Shown: positions 14,466 to 63,482 of the stretch, one piece after another
Layout of the letters: each line of letters opens with the position of its first letter
How positions within the stretch are numbered: position 1 is the first letter of the stretch
From: Halichondria panicea
Lineage: Eukaryota > Porifera > Demospongiae > Suberitida > Halichondriidae
DNA: 64,000 nucleotides
NCBI RefSeq assembly: GCF_963675165.1
Contig: NC_087378.1
Coordinates: 62,001 to 126,000 of the forward strand
Direction of reading: 5' to 3'
The notes under the pieces: generated by a model
The model's database searches: none
What the model was told of the DNA's origin: nothing
What the model saw: only the letters and a program-made list of their open reading frames with translations
Position numbers and translations under genes: made by a program

Positions 14466-26837
<12,372 letters not shown>

Positions 26838-32218: not shown

Positions 32219-38626
<6,408 letters not shown>

Positions 38627-46693: not shown

Positions 46694-46905
<212 letters not shown>

Positions 46906-47724: not shown

Positions 47725-49057
47725 ATGGCTGATATTCTCACAAAGTCTCTGGGTTTTTTGGTGGGTGGGTTGGTGCTGCTCTTGGCTGTGATGTCTTATT
47801 ATATCTCCTCATATCAACCTCCACCACAAGACTTCAATGGGGAATGTAAGTGCCCTTAAGCATCAGTAATATCTCCCTCACAACACACACACGCACACGC
47901 ACACGCACAGTGAACCAGGACAGCAAGTACCGTCCTGTGATCATTTTTCACGGCATCTTCTCCTCCTCTAGCTACATGGAGGATCTGGTAGCCCTCATAC
48001 ACAGTGACTTCAATGGCACTGAGGTGTACAACATTGATGGCTATGATGCAGAGTACAGTCTGCTGCCCATGTGGAGACAGGTGAACGAAATCAAGGGGAG
48101 AATGCTGCCTATAATGCAGAATGCAAAAGATGGTGTCAACCTGATCTGTTTCTCACAAGGTGAGTCCAGAGCCTTCATTGTAGCGTTGTCTCTAATAATG
48201 TATTTCTCTGCAGGGGGTCTAGTTTGCCGAGGTATTCTTGAGACCACCCCTGAACACAATGTCCACACCTTTGTGTCTCTCTCAAGTCCCCAGGCTGGAC
48301 AGTTTGGAGGTACAGTACTAGAGTGTGTGTGTGTGTGTGTGTGTATTAGCCTTCTCCCTGCAGAGAGTGTGTACCTGGACAACATCTTCCCAGACCATGC
48401 CACGGACGGTCTTTATGAGTGAGTGTAGTTTTGCGTGGTTGGTCAGAATAATGCACAATCCAATTTCCTCTCAAGAGTGTTATACTCAAGATTGGGGCAG
48501 GATATTTCAGTGGCCAACTATTGGAGGGGTAGGTTTCATCTGAGTGTCTATATAATATAATATACCGTCTTCTCTCAGATCCCTATCAGTGGGAGCTCTA
48601 CAAGGAGTACAGTTCCTTCCTCTACCCCCTCAACCATCCAAGTGACTCCTCCCACAAGACCAACTTTGAGCGCATTGAGCAGCTAGTGTTGATTGGTGGC
48701 CCTGGCGATGGTGTCATCACTCCCTGGCAGTCAAGGTGAGCTGCTGGAATCATTTCATTCATTCACGATGACAGCTATCGATCCTCTTTCCTGCAGCCAA
48801 TTTGCATTCTATGATGAGAACGAGATAATTATTGACATGGAAAATCAAATGGTGTGTAATTAGCTAATTGCATGAAAATTCTACGAATGTGAGTGGAATG
48901 TTTTCCTTTGCAGTATTTTGAAAAGAACACGTTTGGTCTCCAAACTCTCCACTCAAGAGGGGCCATCCACAGCCACATCATCCCTGGGGTGCAGCACACA
49001 CAGTGGCATGGAAACAAGGATGTATTTGACTGTTGCATTGCCCCCTACCTAAAATAA
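47725..49057 (+). CDS. PPT2: Palmitoyl-protein thioesterase 2-like, copy A
   Basis: Eight exons (47725-47845, 47911-48159, 48214-48309, 48364-48418, 48476-48528, 48579-48735, 48797-48851, 48914-49057) encode 309 residues; human PPT2 has 302. PPT2 is a lysosomal thioesterase that hydrolyses acyl-CoA-type thioesters. Visible landmarks: PVIIFHGIF (oxyanion region); the nucleophile Ser in LICFSQGGLVCR, with the intron splitting the codon after FSQ; SLSSPQAGQFG; GGPGDGVITPWQS, where the Asp before GV is the presumed catalytic acid; and the catalytic His in GVQHTQWHGN. The residue before that Asp is Gly here but Asp in copy B. The N-terminus MADILTKSLGFLVGGLVLLL is a signal or signal-anchor sequence. 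It is a tandem paralogue of the next gene with a shared conversion tract. Confidence 0.93.
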
Positions 49058-49205: not shown

Positions 49206-51038
49206 ATGAGAGGTCTGGTCTGTATCTGTGTTTCTTTGCTGGTCATTTGTGGAGGTAATGTACAGCTACTATATTGACATTCCTACAATCAATATCTAGT
49301 GTGGAGTATGAATTTTGTGTTGAATTTGGAAAGCAAATGTTTTTGATCTGATAATATTGCTATATAAAATGTCACACGTACTTCTCATATTTCCACCTTG
49401 GCTTCAGCTGCTGCCTATCGTCCTGTGATTATCTTTCACGGGATTTTTGGCACCTCCGCTCATATGGATGATTTGGTGGCGCTGATCAAAGGGGCCCACA
49501 ACGGCACTGAGGTACACAATATTGATGGCTACGATGATCTACAAAGCCTCACTCCAATGTGGGAGCAGGTGACCAACATCAAGGCCGAGATGCTGCCTAT
49601 AATGCAGCAGGCAAAAGATGGCGTCAACCTGATCTGTTTCTCACAAGGTGAGTCCAGAGCCTTCATTGTAGCGTTGTCTCTAATAATATATTTCTCTGCA
49701 GGGGGTCTAGTTTGCCGAGGTATTCTTGAGACCACCCCTGAACACAATGTCCACACCTTTGTGTCTCTCTCAAGTCCCCAGGCTGGACAGTTCGGAGGTA
49801 CAGTACTAGAGTGTGTGTTTATCAGATATGTCACTACTTTTTTGCAGATACTGTCTACCTCGAACATTTCTTCCCAAACTTCACCAAGGACCATATTTAT
49901 GAGTGAGTGATTGTGTGATTGTGTGCATTGTGAAATACTGAAAATGTATCATCTCCTAGCTAGTATCATCCATTACCATCTGCTTGGTTATTGCAGGTTA
50001 TTCTACACAACATTTGGACAAAAGTATTCAATTGCCAACTATTGGAGAGGTTAGACACGCACGCACACACACACACACCCCCACACCCCCCCCCCACACA
50101 CACACGCATGCACGCACACACACACGTCCTGTAACTGTTGGTCTGCCCCAAGTTACTGGCTCCTGTCTCTGTCTCAGATCCTCACCAAGAGCAGCTGTAT
50201 GCCAAGAGCAATGTGTTCCTCTACCCCCTCAACCATCCGAGTGACTCCTCCCACAAAACCAACTTTGAGCGGATTGAGCAGCTGGTGTTGATTGGTGGCC
50301 CTGACGATGGTGTCATCACTCCCTGGCAGTCAAGGTGTGTGTGTGTGTGTGTGTGTGGGGGAGGGGGGGGGCGTGGGTGTGTGCGTGTGTTGGCTACCAA
50401 CTCATGACATTCTGCTTCTACAGCCATTTTGGGTTCTATGATGACAATGAGCAGAATATTACAATGGAGGATCAAGAGGTAAGCATATGTAATGAACTCC
50501 TGGTTGGAGAGGTAAGCATATGCAATGAACTCCTGGTTGGAGAGGTAAGCATATGTAATGAACTCCTGGTTGGAGAGGTAAGCATATGCAATGAACTCCT
50601 GGTTGGAGAGGTAAGCATATGTAATGAACTCCTGGTTGGAGAGGTAAGCATATGCAATGAACTCCTGGTTGGAGAGGTAAGCATATGTAATGAACTCCTG
50701 GTTGGAGAGGTAAGCATATGTAATGAACTCCTGGTTGGAGAGGTAAGCATATGTAATGAACTCCTGGTTGGAGAGGTAAGCATATGTAATGAACTCCTGG
50801 TTGGGCTGTAAATGTAATACTGTACTATATACTTTGCATATACCATGCACTGTCAATACCATGTTGTCATAATTTTTTATGCATACACTGACAGTTCTAC
50901 AAGACGGACAGTTTTGGTCTCCAAACACTTGCCTCGAAAGGGGTCATTAAAGTCCACTCAATTCCAGGGGTGCCCCACACCACGTGGCATGGGAACAAAG
51001 ATGTCTTCAACTGCTGTATTGCCCAATACCTACAGTGA
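49206..51038 (+). CDS. PPT2: Palmitoyl-protein thioesterase 2-like, copy B, with reiterated splice donors
   Basis: Eight exons (49206-49254, 49408-49647, 49702-49797, 49848-49902, 49997-50049, 50178-50334, 50424-50478, 50895-51038) give 282 residues with the shortest form of exon 7. The start MRGLVCICVSLLVICGG is a compact signal peptide, so this copy looks like a conventional soluble lysosomal enzyme, whereas copy A has a longer hydrophobic leader. The catalytic landmarks are intact: FSQGGL (Ser), GGPDDGVITPWQS (Asp) and GVPHTTWHGN (His). Exon-intron boundaries match copy A one for one. Intron 7 begins with ten tandem 33-bp units, each starting with the same GAG|GTAAGC donor and open in the exon frame, so exon 7 could be lengthened in steps of 11 residues. 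Confidence 0.93.
50479..50807 (+). repeat. 33-bp minisatellite, ten units, each with a splice donor
   Basis: GTAAGCATATG recurs at 50479 and every 33 bases to 50776. Units differ only at one T/C (T C T C T C T T T T), suggesting a 66-bp expansion step. Read in the exon frame each unit encodes VSICNELLVGE; the frame ends in TAA at 50809-50811. The equivalent intron of copy A is 62 bases and has no repeat. Confidence 0.97.
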
Positions 51039-51263: not shown

Positions 51264-53493
51264 TTACATTGATTTCAGAACATTCTTGATGATTCCACAA
51301 GCTTCCCTCATTTGTTCCTCTGTGATATTGAGTGGCGGTGAGAGGCGGAGGATGTGGTCATGAGTAGGCTTGCTCACTATGCCATTGTCCCTCAGTCTCA
51401 GAGCAACGTTCCACGCATTCACATCTGCACACAATCAAGACACACTATAAATAGACTATGTACACACGGTACATGTGCAGACTGTTCAATATCATGAGAA
51501 ATTAAACACTCTTTTTAACTATGACAGCAATATACACTAAAGTCTATTTGTGTTGAGTTTGACCTTCATAAAGTTGTCATAACTTTGTCATACTTTACTG
51601 AAATTCAAAAGCGCTTCTATCTATATGCTGTAGAGCTGGTAAGCTCCAACCAGCCATTTTCCATGAAGTCCCAGGCATACTTGTCCACCACATAAAGCAT
51701 AAATGAAGCCATAATTAACCACATAACTTCCGGGGTCGAACTCAACGCAAATATACTTTTAGGCATTAATTCCACTTCTTATATATAAGCCATTAGCCTA
51801 TATTAGCCTATAGATCCCATTAGCCTATATTAGCCTATATTATTAGCCTATAGATTCCATTAGCCTATATATTCCATTAGCCTATAATTATTAGCCTATA
51901 GATCCCATTAGCTTACCTCCCTCTGACTTTATGACCACTGCCCAGAACAGTCCTCTGCCTCGTATCATCGTGACAATGTCTGGCAGATTTGTCATCTCGT
52001 TCTTGAACACCTCTCCCATCCTCCGTGCATTCTCATACATGCCCTCCTCCTCAAGCACCTATGCGTGGGAGGATGGGAGTTGGTAATGGTCATCAAAAAA
52101 AGTTACCTTCAAAGAAGCCATGGCAACCTTGCAAGCCAGAGGGCTACCACCATAAGTTGAGCCATGCTGTAAGGACAAAGACATGGCTAGGATGTGTACA
52201 ATACGTGTAGACTACACACCCACACACATACCTGCCCAGGCTTGATGGTTAGCATGACTTCATCATCAGCCAAAACACACGACACCTAATAAACCAGGGA
52301 TGGGGTATACAATCAGTGCAGTAGTTAGACAATGGTGATATTCTCACTGGGAACATTCCTCCAGAGAGTGCTTTGCCAAGGACAACAACATCAGGCCTCA
52401 CTGAGTCATGATCACACGCCAGTCGCCTTCAAGGTATGAAATGATGACGACAAGACACTAGTGTGCAATCTATACACACAATGGATTAGTAACTATACCT
52501 GTCTAAGAAAGCTGTCTATGAAAGATATTAATTATGGGCAATGGCCACATGAACATACTTTCCAGTCCTACCCAGGCCAGTCTGAATCTCATCAGCAATC
52601 CAAAGCACCTACAAGACAGACAGGTGGTGGTCAATGGACTGCTACTGTACACAGCTAGTCACTGCAAGCAGGGGAAAGAGTTCCTACGGGTTTTTACATT
52701 GTTTCTGGAGCAGATGTCGCGTACTCCCCTCAGATATCCCTCGCTGGGGATGACTACTCCATTCTCCCCCTGAATGGGCTCTATGTGGAGAGCAGCACAG
52801 TGAGGGTCCGACACAGCTGTCTGCATATAACACACAATCCACAATTATTACACACTCCTTCTTTCTTACCTCCAAAGCATCCAGGTTGTCGTACTCTATA
52901 ACCTCAAAACCGGGTACAAATGGTCCAAACCCTCCATAGCTGTCCGAGTCAGTCGATGATGATATAGCTGCAATAGAGCGTCCCCAGAAGTTTCCCTCAG
53001 CAAAGACGACCTTGGCTTGGTTATGGGGAACCCCCTTCACATCATACGCCCACCTCCGAGCTAGCTTCACTGATGTCTCGGCTGCCTCCACTCCACTGTT
53101 CATTGGCAATAACTTGTCATATCCAAACAGCCTGGTTGTGTACTCCTCGAATTCACCCAACGCATCGTTGTAGAAAGCTCTGGAGGTGAGCGTCAGTGTG
53201 TCCAGTTGGTTCTTGAGAGCTTCAACAATCTTGGGATGTCTATGGCCTTGGTTGACGGCCGAATAGCCACTGAGGAAATCAAAGTATTGCTTTCCTTCCA
53301 CGTCCCACACATACACACCCTCAGCTCTGCACAGTGCAACAGGTATAGGCTTGTAGTTCCATGCTCCATACTTCTTCTCTTTGTTGAACACAGCCTCACT
53401 CTTGGAGCCAGGAGGACCTGGTGGAGTGATGTAGCCTCTAGCAGACACCAGCCTCATGTAAGAGGAGCGAAGGACGTGCTTACATAGAGCCAT
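51264..53493 (-). CDS. OAT: Ornithine aminotransferase, mitochondrial
   Basis: OAT is the PLP enzyme that interconverts ornithine and glutamate-5-semialdehyde in the mitochondrial matrix. About eight exons: 52870-53493, 52698-52820, 52559-52608, then about 52346-52430, 52239-52287, 52108-52167, 51916-52060 and 51264-51425. The start [20 protein letters not shown] is a plausible mitochondrial presequence; another Met lies in frame 18 codons upstream. Landmarks: [79 protein letters not shown], the PLP lysine in [24 protein letters not shown] and the C-terminal [14 protein letters not shown]. It shares an approximately 220-bp upstream region with B4GALT7. Confidence 0.96.
51785..51915. repeat. 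ATTAGCCTATA short tandem repeat
   Basis: ATTAGCCTATA, with AGATCCC or TATTCC spacers, recurs about eight times in an OAT intron, up to the splice acceptor region. Confidence 0.85.
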
Positions 53494-60829: not shown

Positions 60830-63482
60830 ATGGACTGCAAGTTGTGCTACAGTTGTGTTCTAGTGTGGATGCTGCATTCCCTGTCAACAAGTGAGTATAA
60901 TTATAGTCTATAGCTTCCATATAATGATTTAATACTGTATAGTCTATATAAATCATAGCTATAATTAGTTTACATTCTGCATGCATTAACTGTATCCCAC
61001 TGTATGTTTGCTGCATGCTGTAGCTAGCTAGGTGGTGTACCACATTAACTGTATCCCACTGTATGTTTGCTGCATGCTATAGCTAGCTAGGTGGTGTACC
61101 ACATTAACTGTATCCCACTGTATGTTTGCTGCATGCTATAGCTAGCTAGGTGGTGTACCACATTAACTGTATCCCACTGTATGTTTGCTGCATGCTATAG
61201 CTAGCTAGGTGGTGTACCACATTAACTGTATCCCACCAGGGGCGGATCCAGGGGTGATTTTGAGGGGCTGAAGCCCCCCCCTTTTGAAAAAACTACCGTG
61301 TGTTGTAGTCTGACTCTACAACAATTTTGCCACCAATTATGCATCTGTAGACTCACTTGAAATCACTTGAGAGATGCTAGACAACAGCTACTAGGAGTAT
61401 AAAGGATCTAGGGTAGCTAGCTGGACGTACCTAGCTAGCTAGCTAGCTGTACGTACGTACGTACATTTGATCAGTACAGTATCACCATAGTATTAAAAGT
61501 AAGTGCAGAGGTCAACGTATTCTACTCATTAATATGAAAGTTCAAAGGTCAAATCTTGCAAAAAAAATTCGCCTCCGGCGAGGCTGCCCTTGTACAGGGC
61601 TTCGCCCCTTTCTAGCTAGTCTAGCCCCCCCCTTTTGTTTTTCCTGGATCCGCCCCTGCCCACTGTATGTTTGCTGCATGCTGTAGCTAGCTAGGTGGTG
61701 TACCACATTAACTGTATCCCACTGTATATGTTTGCTGCATGCTGTAGCTAGCTAGGTGGTGTACCTAGCGCCTGAGTGGAATGCTTAACAGAAACATGTG
61801 TTTATCGGTACACAATCAGTTGTAAATATCGCCTCCATCCCATGCAAGTGCATGCAAAGAGAGTATTCCAGTATACCAGACTGTAGACATATGTGTACCC
61901 TACAAGTATATAGATTGTGGTGAACCACATCATAAAACTGAACAGTTGGTTTTTGGCTAGTGCTAAACATAGAAACCATGTTTACTGCATGGATACCACT
62001 CATGCAGATGCTGCCCCAGGCCAAAGCCATACAAATCCAAGACCACCCAACTTCATATTTATCCTCGCTGATGATCTTGGCTACGGAGACGTTGGTTACA
62101 ATGGAGGTAGGGCACACACCCCTCACATAGACACACTCTCGAGAGGCCCACACAGTGCAAGATTCAACCGTTTCTACAGTGGCGCTCCAGTTTGTACGCC
62201 CACGAGAGGAACACTGTTGACAGGACGCAACCACAACCGTTACTGTCTCTGGAAAGCAAACACTCCCGGGAAAAAGTGTCGCTCCCGGAGCGATGACTTT
62301 AACTGCCCAGCCCAAGTGCTCTTACCGGACTCTGAAATTACAGTCGCTGAAATTCTCCAAAAGGAGGGCTACCGAACGGCTGTATTTGGAAAATGGCATC
62401 TTGGAGATCTAAAACAGCTGCCTGGAGGAAAACTGCCCTCGAGCCCAGGAAACAATGGATTTGATGCATGGAAAGTTACAGAACGCTCTGCTCCCACCTC
62501 CACTCCAAACTGTGCCTGTTTCGACAAGTCGCTATGCAACCTGGGCCATTACTCGAGTATTAGCCCACCCCCGTGCACCAACTATCATTCCCGCTCACCA
62601 GGTTCTGACACACTGACAGCACACGCAGAACCTATACTCAAAGATGACTCAGAATTTGTTGTTGATCTGTTTGAAGAATTCCTACAAGATGTTGTTTCAA
62701 GTCAAGAAACAAAACCATTTTTTGTTTATCTACCACTTCATGGAGTACATCAACGATTCATTGCAACCTCTCCATATGATTCTCCCTACAAAAATAACTT
62801 AACTCTTAGTACAGAAGAAATTGATTATTTTGCTACCGTAACAGCCATTGATAGTGCAGTTGGGAGAGTGAGAGACATGCTTAAAGCATACAACCTGAGT
62901 GACAATACGATGCTCTGGTTCGCAAGTGATAATGGACCAGAAAACGGGACACCTGGCGAGACAGGTGGCCTCAGAGATAGGAAAGGAAGTTTACACGAAG
63001 GTGGTATTCGTGTTCCAGGCATAATCGAATACCCAGCCCTAATGAACACTAATTTAGTGTCGGACATCCCTATAATTACAAATGACTTCCTCCCCACAGT
63101 GTGCGATGTATTGAACATACCAGTACCCACAGACAGGCCGTTAGATGGCATCTCAATTCTACCCTTCTTGAGTAAAGATGCCGAGAAACGAAATTCAACT
63201 ATAAAATGGGCATTCAAGATCAAAGGAGATTTCAATCAAGGACGATACAGTGCTGCTATACTGGACGATAACTATAAACTTGTTGCTAACTATTCGAAAG
63301 GAATTTTTCAGAAAGCAGCCTTGTATGACCTCAGTGTTGACAAGAGCGAACAATCTAAGATCAACTTTTTGCTGAATTATAAAGAAATGAGCATGTATAC
63401 AAAGCTAACGAAAGAACTAGAAGAATGGAGACAGTCAGTGGAACACAGCGCATCAGAATGTCTTAAAAAACAAGATACTTAA
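60830..63482 (+). CDS. Secreted or lysosomal sulfatase
   Basis: Two exons, 60830-60890 and 62008-63482, join in phase (61 + 1,475 nt) to give 511 residues. The short first exon is the signal peptide MDCKLCYSCVLVWMLHSLST. The metal site ADDLGYGDVGYNGG follows directly. The sulfatase signature is intact: the Cys in VCTPTRGTLLTGR is the residue converted to formylglycine. Further active-site motifs are GKWHLGD and SDNGPENG, with LPLHGVHQRF between. The sequence is of the arylsulfatase A / GALNS type rather than the ARSB type, but the sulfate ester it cleaves is not evident. There is a cysteine-rich insert (NCACFDKSLCNLG). No C-terminal GPI or retention signal is visible; it ends LKKQDT. Confidence 0.92.
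60986..61764. repeat. 59-bp tandem array in the sulfatase intron
   Basis: TTAACTGTATCCCACTGTAT begins units at 60986, 61045, 61104 and 61163. The fifth unit (61222) is broken after CCCAC by the element at 61237-61658 and resumes at 61659; one further unit follows. Confidence 0.95.
61237..61658. mobile_element. 422-bp MITE with CCCAC target duplication
   Basis: The ends CAGGGGCGGATCCAGG and CCTGGATCCGCCCCTG are perfect inverted repeats. CCCAC flanks both sides (61232-61236 and 61659-61663) and restores the 59-bp unit when the element is removed. There is no transposase ORF. C-rich runs (CCCCCCCC TTTTG) sit inside both ends. Confidence 0.9.

Follow-up and report, generated by a model that had tools for sequence, protein, structure and literature searches.

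The window, which is the whole 64,000-nucleotide stretch of Halichondria panicea DNA that was analysed, contained two PPT2 genes on the forward strand, here called copy A (PPT2-A) and copy B (PPT2-B), and a tandem repeat at the end of exon 7 of copy B. The features of the locus, in window coordinates, were as follows (the slash in GAG/GTAAGC marks the splice point).

47725 to 49057, + strand: PPT2-A, eight exons, Palm_thioest match at 1.8e-61.
48852 to 48913, + strand: intron 7 of PPT2-A, 62 nt, without the repeat.
49206 to 51038, + strand: PPT2-B, eight exons, 282 aa with donor 1, GT-AG introns and an intact frame.
49206-49254, 49408-49647, 49702-49797 and 49848-49902, + strand: exons 1 to 4 of PPT2-B.
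49997-50049, 50178-50334, 50424-50478 (with donor 1) and 50895-51038, + strand: exons 5 to 8 of PPT2-B.
50424 to 50478, + strand: exon 7 of PPT2-B when spliced at donor 1, phase 0, from the exon model and the alignment to 1pja.
50475 to 50804, + strand: minisatellite of 10 x 33 bp, with GAG/GTAAGC in each unit; peptide in the exon 7 frame VSICNELLVGE in units 1-9 and VSICNELLVGL in unit 10.
50479, 50512, 50545, 50578, 50611, 50644, 50677, 50710, 50743 and 50776, + strand: GT of donors 1 to 10.
50809 to 50811, + strand: in-frame TAA closing the exon 7 frame just past unit 10, met only on intron retention.
50812 to 50894, + strand: remainder of intron 7 on the 3' side of the array, with the acceptor ACACTGACAG intact at 50894.
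50895 to 51038, + strand: exon 8 of PPT2-B, entered in phase 0 and holding HTTWH.

PPT2-B matched the Pfam family Palm_thioest (PF02089) at 4.3e-67 and human PPT2 (1pja) at E 3.5e-86, whereas the best PPT1 chain reached 2.7e-14; judged by these matches, the host gene of the array is a true PPT2, nearer to PPT2 than to PPT1. When exon 7 was joined to exon 8 through donor 1, the junction aligned with human PPT2 (1pja) without a gap, which argues that donor 1 is the ancestral site and that donors 2-10 would insert residues into a conserved stretch. The alignment also placed the insert, as had been predicted, between an Asp and a His that we take to be the catalytic residues; the HTTWH segment of exon 8 is presumably the catalytic-His segment. 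Copies A and B had the same seven intron phases, and their exons 3-8 were equal in length. Intron 7 of PPT2-B measured 416 nt from donor 1, and the other 13 introns of the two genes measured 50-153 nt. The gene model of copy A, with its 62-nt intron 7, agreed with the earlier statement that this copy has no repeat there. The dN/dS between the copies was about 0.3 overall, and for the 47 codons of exon 8 it was 0.16 (NG86) or 0.21 (YN00), so that this pairwise test gave no sign of relaxed constraint in exon 8, which lies downstream of the array.

The two copies were nearly identical in intron 2 (53/54) and exon 3 (95/96), while the rest was less alike; this near-identity, at window positions ~48100-48310 and 49600-49800, is probably a gene-conversion tract. 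Another contig carried a third, copy-A-like PPT2, split by about 16 kb into a part with exons 4-8 (G000:C12:6446113-6446775, L029) and a part with exons 2-3 (6463139-6463440, L030), and 4 of its 6 matched pieces were 94-98% identical to the copy A protein.

Analysis with TRF showed 33 bp x 10.0 copies at 50475-50804 on the + strand, with 97% matches and no indels. The donor word GAGGTAAGC was found in 10/10 units, giving ten + strand matches at 33-bp spacing (50476 to 50773), with one more match in the window at 51911 on the - strand, against a mean of 0.35 in window shuffles. Both results bore out the original prediction of ten tandem GAG/GTAAGC units of 33 bp. The array that it had set at 50476..50811 is real, but the repeat starts at 50475 (AGAG) and so includes the final four exon 7 bases. 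From -4 to +11 the ten donors did not differ. Unit 10 had a deviant tail, GGGCTG where the other units ended in GGAGAG; otherwise a single base varied among the units (T C T C T C T T T T), and this T/C change was synonymous (TGT/TGC), which left the units uninformative on selection within them. T and C alternate in units 1-6, which points to growth in pairs of units (66 bp).

The exon 7 frame was open from 50305 to 50811 (168 aa), up to the stop TAA at 50809. Exon 8 was entered in phase 0 from each of the ten donors, and the ten donor choices gave ten single intact ORFs of 282, 293 and so on to 381 aa, each 11 aa longer than the one before. The frame had indeed been expected to stay open through the array, with the same phase into exon 8 from any donor and 11 aa added per unit for up to nine units. 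When intron 7 was kept, the reading frame reached a stop at aa 346. The opposite strand, also predicted to be open, had three open frames across the array (240, 121 and 126 aa), which we read as a by-product of the repeat unit.

A search of the 131-Mb genome for the unit with up to 3 mismatches gave ten matches, all at this one place and none at a second one, which rules out a dispersed repeat family. The 11-aa repeat was also rejected as a protein family; its Pfam matches were repeat artefacts, such as MftA at 4.9e-12 with 0 stretches passing singly. Elsewhere in the window, a CA run and a GT run, each perfect and about 100 copies long, were found at 46698-46903 and 35195-35393, the former about 0.8 kb upstream of PPT2-A, and two long-unit tandem arrays with 99% matches were found at 18182-18861 (113 bp x 6) and 60984-61236 (59 bp x 4.3).

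Taken from the DNA, the array is probably a donor-spanning minisatellite in intron 7, with donor 1 mainly used and rare leakage of +11 aa. We infer that it began with a short tandem duplication of the last four exon 7 bases and 29 intron 7 bases, which would then have grown to ten copies. The spliceosome would mostly pick the ancestral donor 1, and the array would be removed with the 416-nt intron, leaving a normal PPT2-B of 282 aa. Occasional use of donor 2, and rarely of a later one, would give an in-frame protein with 11 more residues and not message decay, because 33 is 3 x 11 nt and the unit has no stop. By analogy with the human ABCA7 VNTR described below, most PPT2-B transcripts would be expected to splice at 50479 and a few percent to carry +33 nt. 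Use of downstream donors at a detectable level (1% or more) is possible, at clearly less than an even chance.

Arrays of donors elsewhere were examined in the genome assembly (131 Mb, 39 contigs). Triple AGGTGAG with starts 15-45 bases apart occurred 199 times genome-wide, against 140 in the reversed control, and triple AGGTAAG 42 times, including 8 from the PPT2-B array, against 62. Together this was 241 vs 202 in the control, no good case for minisatellites that seek donors, and in a sample of 101,704 bases AGGTGAG (27) and GAGTGGA (28) were about equal. Minisatellites are common in this genome in general and are not clearly aimed at donors.

Among the matches listed, AGGTGAG arrays lay at 29 places, all of which were fetched, and 6 of the 19 AGGTAAG places besides PPT2-B were fetched; 9 of the 13 unfetched AGGTAAG places were one dispersed GGATCGACTCGATG repeat. 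The homology scan covered 20 of these 35 fetched places. Upstream of the arrays at the 29 AGGTGAG places, 27 ORFs had 22 codons or more; 20 of these were compared with Pfam and 4 of the 20 with PDB; a further 7 ORFs (5 around scanned arrays and 2 at AGGTAAG places) were compared with Pfam, and 2 of the 7 with PDB. A supported exon before the array was found at 7 of the 20 scanned places among the matches listed, 3 of them firm and 4 weaker:

L065, SMC4: 4 donors; PDB match at 7.5e-6, running to the last residue of the exon; firm.
L078, PIGK: 8 donors; chain 7w72_K matched to residue 125, the last of the exon, at 5e-6; firm.
L087, RPA2/POLR1B: 5 donors; PDB match at 1.2e-9; firm.
L079, dsRNA-binding protein: 4 donors; Pfam dsrm at 1e-5, above the cut-off.
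L071, dymeclin-like: 14 donors; Pfam E 0.041 before and 0.0029 after the array, both below the curated cut-off.
L073, STK11IP-like: 3 donors; Pfam 0.0046, below the cut-off; weak.
L070, cytochrome b5 reductase-like (G000:C5:298600-300900): array from about 1097 with a period of 42; weak.

The next exon of PIGK, VTVENFLRVLTG, was in phase 0 and resumed at residue 126 of 7w72_K (E 0.067), while the frame through its array met TAG after four codons. For the dymeclin-like gene, profile positions 65-97 were matched before the array and 101-164 after it, which are neighbouring stretches. The cytochrome b5 reductase-like exon alone matched FAD_binding_6 at 0.0025 and 18.6 bits (cut-off 21.1), and a longer ORF matched it at 5.4e-5 and 23.9 bits with the match extending into the array; the PDB match was 0.61, and 0.82 for the longer ORF, where it ranked below a chance-level lipocalin. 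Its frame was open through the 42-bp-period array and beyond, so that intron retention might also be in frame, and we read LYKDGRVSEMIRAW as its probable next coding part.

At 12 of the 20 scanned places there was no homology match, and L094 gave only unspecific coiled-coil Pfam models under the cut-offs. Pfam comparison of the ORFs following L077 and L078 gave no match, nor did that of L092, and after L073 only weak unspecific zinc-ribbon or HypA matches were obtained. Two dispersed repeats were also seen. One had a tandem unit of ~44 bp from AGGTAAGGATCGACTCGATG at 9 places (G000 C5, C7, C8, C10, C11 and C13) and is perhaps part of a mobile element; the other, a 30/45-bp repeat close to AGTCCTCAAGAGGGGATTCCAGGTGAGC, occurred at L069, L072 and L081 (C4, C5 and C12).

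In 6 of the 7 supported arrays, among the matches listed, every downstream donor led to a stop or a frame shift, so donor 1 must supply the protein in these six. These genes suggest that splicing in this organism can still take the first donor when 3 to 14 similar ones line up after an exon; SMC4, PIGK and RPA2 would otherwise fail. The six frame-breaking genes are a filtered sample, because such arrays survive only where donor 1 is used; PPT2-B is outside the filter acting on them. Besides PPT2-B, one of the seven supported arrays (L070) was in frame in this small sample of 20 out of 35 places, which is near the chance rate of roughly 13% by our arithmetic (1/3 for the period x ~2/3 for the phase x ~0.6 for no stop), and an in-frame excess is not clear.

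The array was compared with known systems. The human ABCA7 intron 18 VNTR (De Roeck et al. 2018, PMC5954066) has a 25-bp unit and opens with the GT that serves as the canonical donor of exon 18. Like this VNTR, the PPT2-B repeat starts at a genuine exon donor at the end of the exon and carries a donor in every unit, and donor 1 leaves the exon unchanged. In ABCA7, retention of one unit was 2 +/- 1%, out of frame and with a premature stop, and a translation block raised the premature-stop transcripts substantially, so that use of the second donor would be above 2% (PMC5954066). In 90% of BA10 samples, alternative splicing, for the most part skipping of exon 19, was more abundant than canonical splicing; VNTR length acted mainly on this skipping, which increased with it (PMC5954066). 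The one-unit step through the next donor was observed for ABCA7; in PPT2-B it is predicted from the sequence. Unlike the ABCA7 VNTR, which is very long and polymorphic with a 25-bp unit, the PPT2-B array has a 33-bp unit, is in frame and has ten copies in one assembly.

Other comparisons were with repeats at splice sites. Minisatellites with units of ~30 bp at exon-intron boundaries alter gene structure among paralogues in human segmental duplicates, with novel introns or varying exons, whereas the PPT2-B repeat multiplies donors at an old intron (PMC2812944). Tandem duplication of an AGGT segment can lead to intron gain (Rogers 1989; Hellsten 2011, cited in PMC4974935), and in fission yeast, where a 24-bp AGGT segment has been duplicated several times within a gene, an intron reportedly lies across the duplicates (PMC4974935). 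The duplicated segment of PPT2-B likewise holds AG/GT, but its intron is old and common to copy A, and the old acceptor is intact. Tandem alternative 5' splice sites are usually two, a few bases apart, unlike the ten identical donors of the PPT2-B minisatellite. They share with it the close donors and the small differences between isoforms (e.g. PMC2423196). In the literature searched, with partial coverage, an in-frame multi-donor minisatellite was not found reported.

An alternative to the first donor is the last one. Intron definition would take the donor nearest the acceptor, and the main protein would then contain nine units (99 aa). An intron-length preference could favour late donors: the last donor gives an intron of 119 nt, inside the range of 50-153 nt seen for the 13 others of the two genes, and the first gives one of 416 nt. 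Where mammalian test genes carry duplicated donors, the nearer one is often preferred. Last-donor use is nevertheless impossible in 6 of the 7 supported arrays among the matches listed, and of the 12 or more ABCA7 donors it is the first that is canonical (PMC5954066); we regard last-donor use as unlikely in PPT2-B.

The original prediction went further and proposed a length ladder of isoforms. Its in-frame anatomy stood (ten ORFs), but as the likely main behaviour it did not, in view of the six frame-breaking arrays and ABCA7; with donor 1 obligatory in 6 of the 7 supported arrays and ABCA7 retention of ~2%, the ladder becomes a hypothesis of minor leakage. In its full functional form, several donors would be used appreciably, and steps of 11 aa through unit number and splicing would alter the properties of the enzyme. 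The ten like donors, in frame and free of stops with ten valid ORFs, are consistent with this, as are the second in-frame array at L070 and a single-sequence AlphaFold2 prediction of exon 7 plus the array alone as one helix (residues 9 to 127, pTM 0.40). However, the in-frame share of 1/7 besides PPT2-B is near the chance rate given above, and the insert sits at the junction that is gap-free against human PPT2. The five AlphaFold2 models also disagreed, with mean pLDDT from 87.4 in the best to 23.6 in the worst, and the helix is given little weight. If it were true, a straight helix of as many as 99 residues would hold its two ends far apart within a single domain, and the longer isoforms would hardly be tolerated. 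The functional ladder is considered very improbable.

RNA folding was considered as a mask of donors 2-10, and the predicted folding gave no clear reason for donor 1. In 80-nt windows, donor 1 had an unpaired probability of 0.055 at +1..+6, where donors 2-10 had 0.067-0.123, and of 0.032 at -3..+6, where donors 2-10 had 0.003-0.015; in 150- and 250-nt windows, the -3..+6 openness of donor 1 was within or near the range of donors 2-10. The array fold was more stable than shuffles (z -3.66), which the GCATATGC-like palindrome of the repeat and its CTCC/GGAG arms would bring about in any case. The units (window 50479-50774) carry GCATATGC or GCATATGT with these arms, so that adjacent units can pair. 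No match to Rfam RNA elements was found in the window at the gathering thresholds.

An assembly or sequencing artefact in the unit number is hardly to be expected: the units are near-identical and come from a single assembly, but the T/C variant pattern, the intact flanks, an assembly of only 39 contigs for 131 Mb and the many like arrays with other units in the genome all speak against it, although the exact unit number of PPT2-B may be off. Least credible is intron gain by tandem duplication with a new acceptor inside the array, which would agree with the GAG/GTAAG at every joint, the 33-nt multiples that stay in frame and the reported fission-yeast precedent (PMC4974935), but would have to rely on a polypyrimidine tract that is weak by inspection before the unit AG (CTCCTGGTTGGAGAG) while a normal acceptor is present downstream at 50894.

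The reading of a donor-spanning minisatellite with donor 1 mainly used differs from known donor-spanning repeats in that the PPT2-B unit is a multiple of three and free of stops, so that leakage would be in frame. It is unlikely that PPT2-B carries a heritable series of isoforms in 11-residue steps, with the length set by unit number and donor choice and no decay, for which L070 would be a second case. Natural genes make it difficult to study how a spliceosome picks one of many identical donors. This genome offers a natural set for it, in which PPT2-B and seven supported arrays, among the matches listed, have 3 to 14 donors at exon ends, six of them frame-breaking and two (PPT2-B and L070) in frame. 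If the downstream donors of PPT2-B are used, the array would be a donor minisatellite that directly changes protein length.
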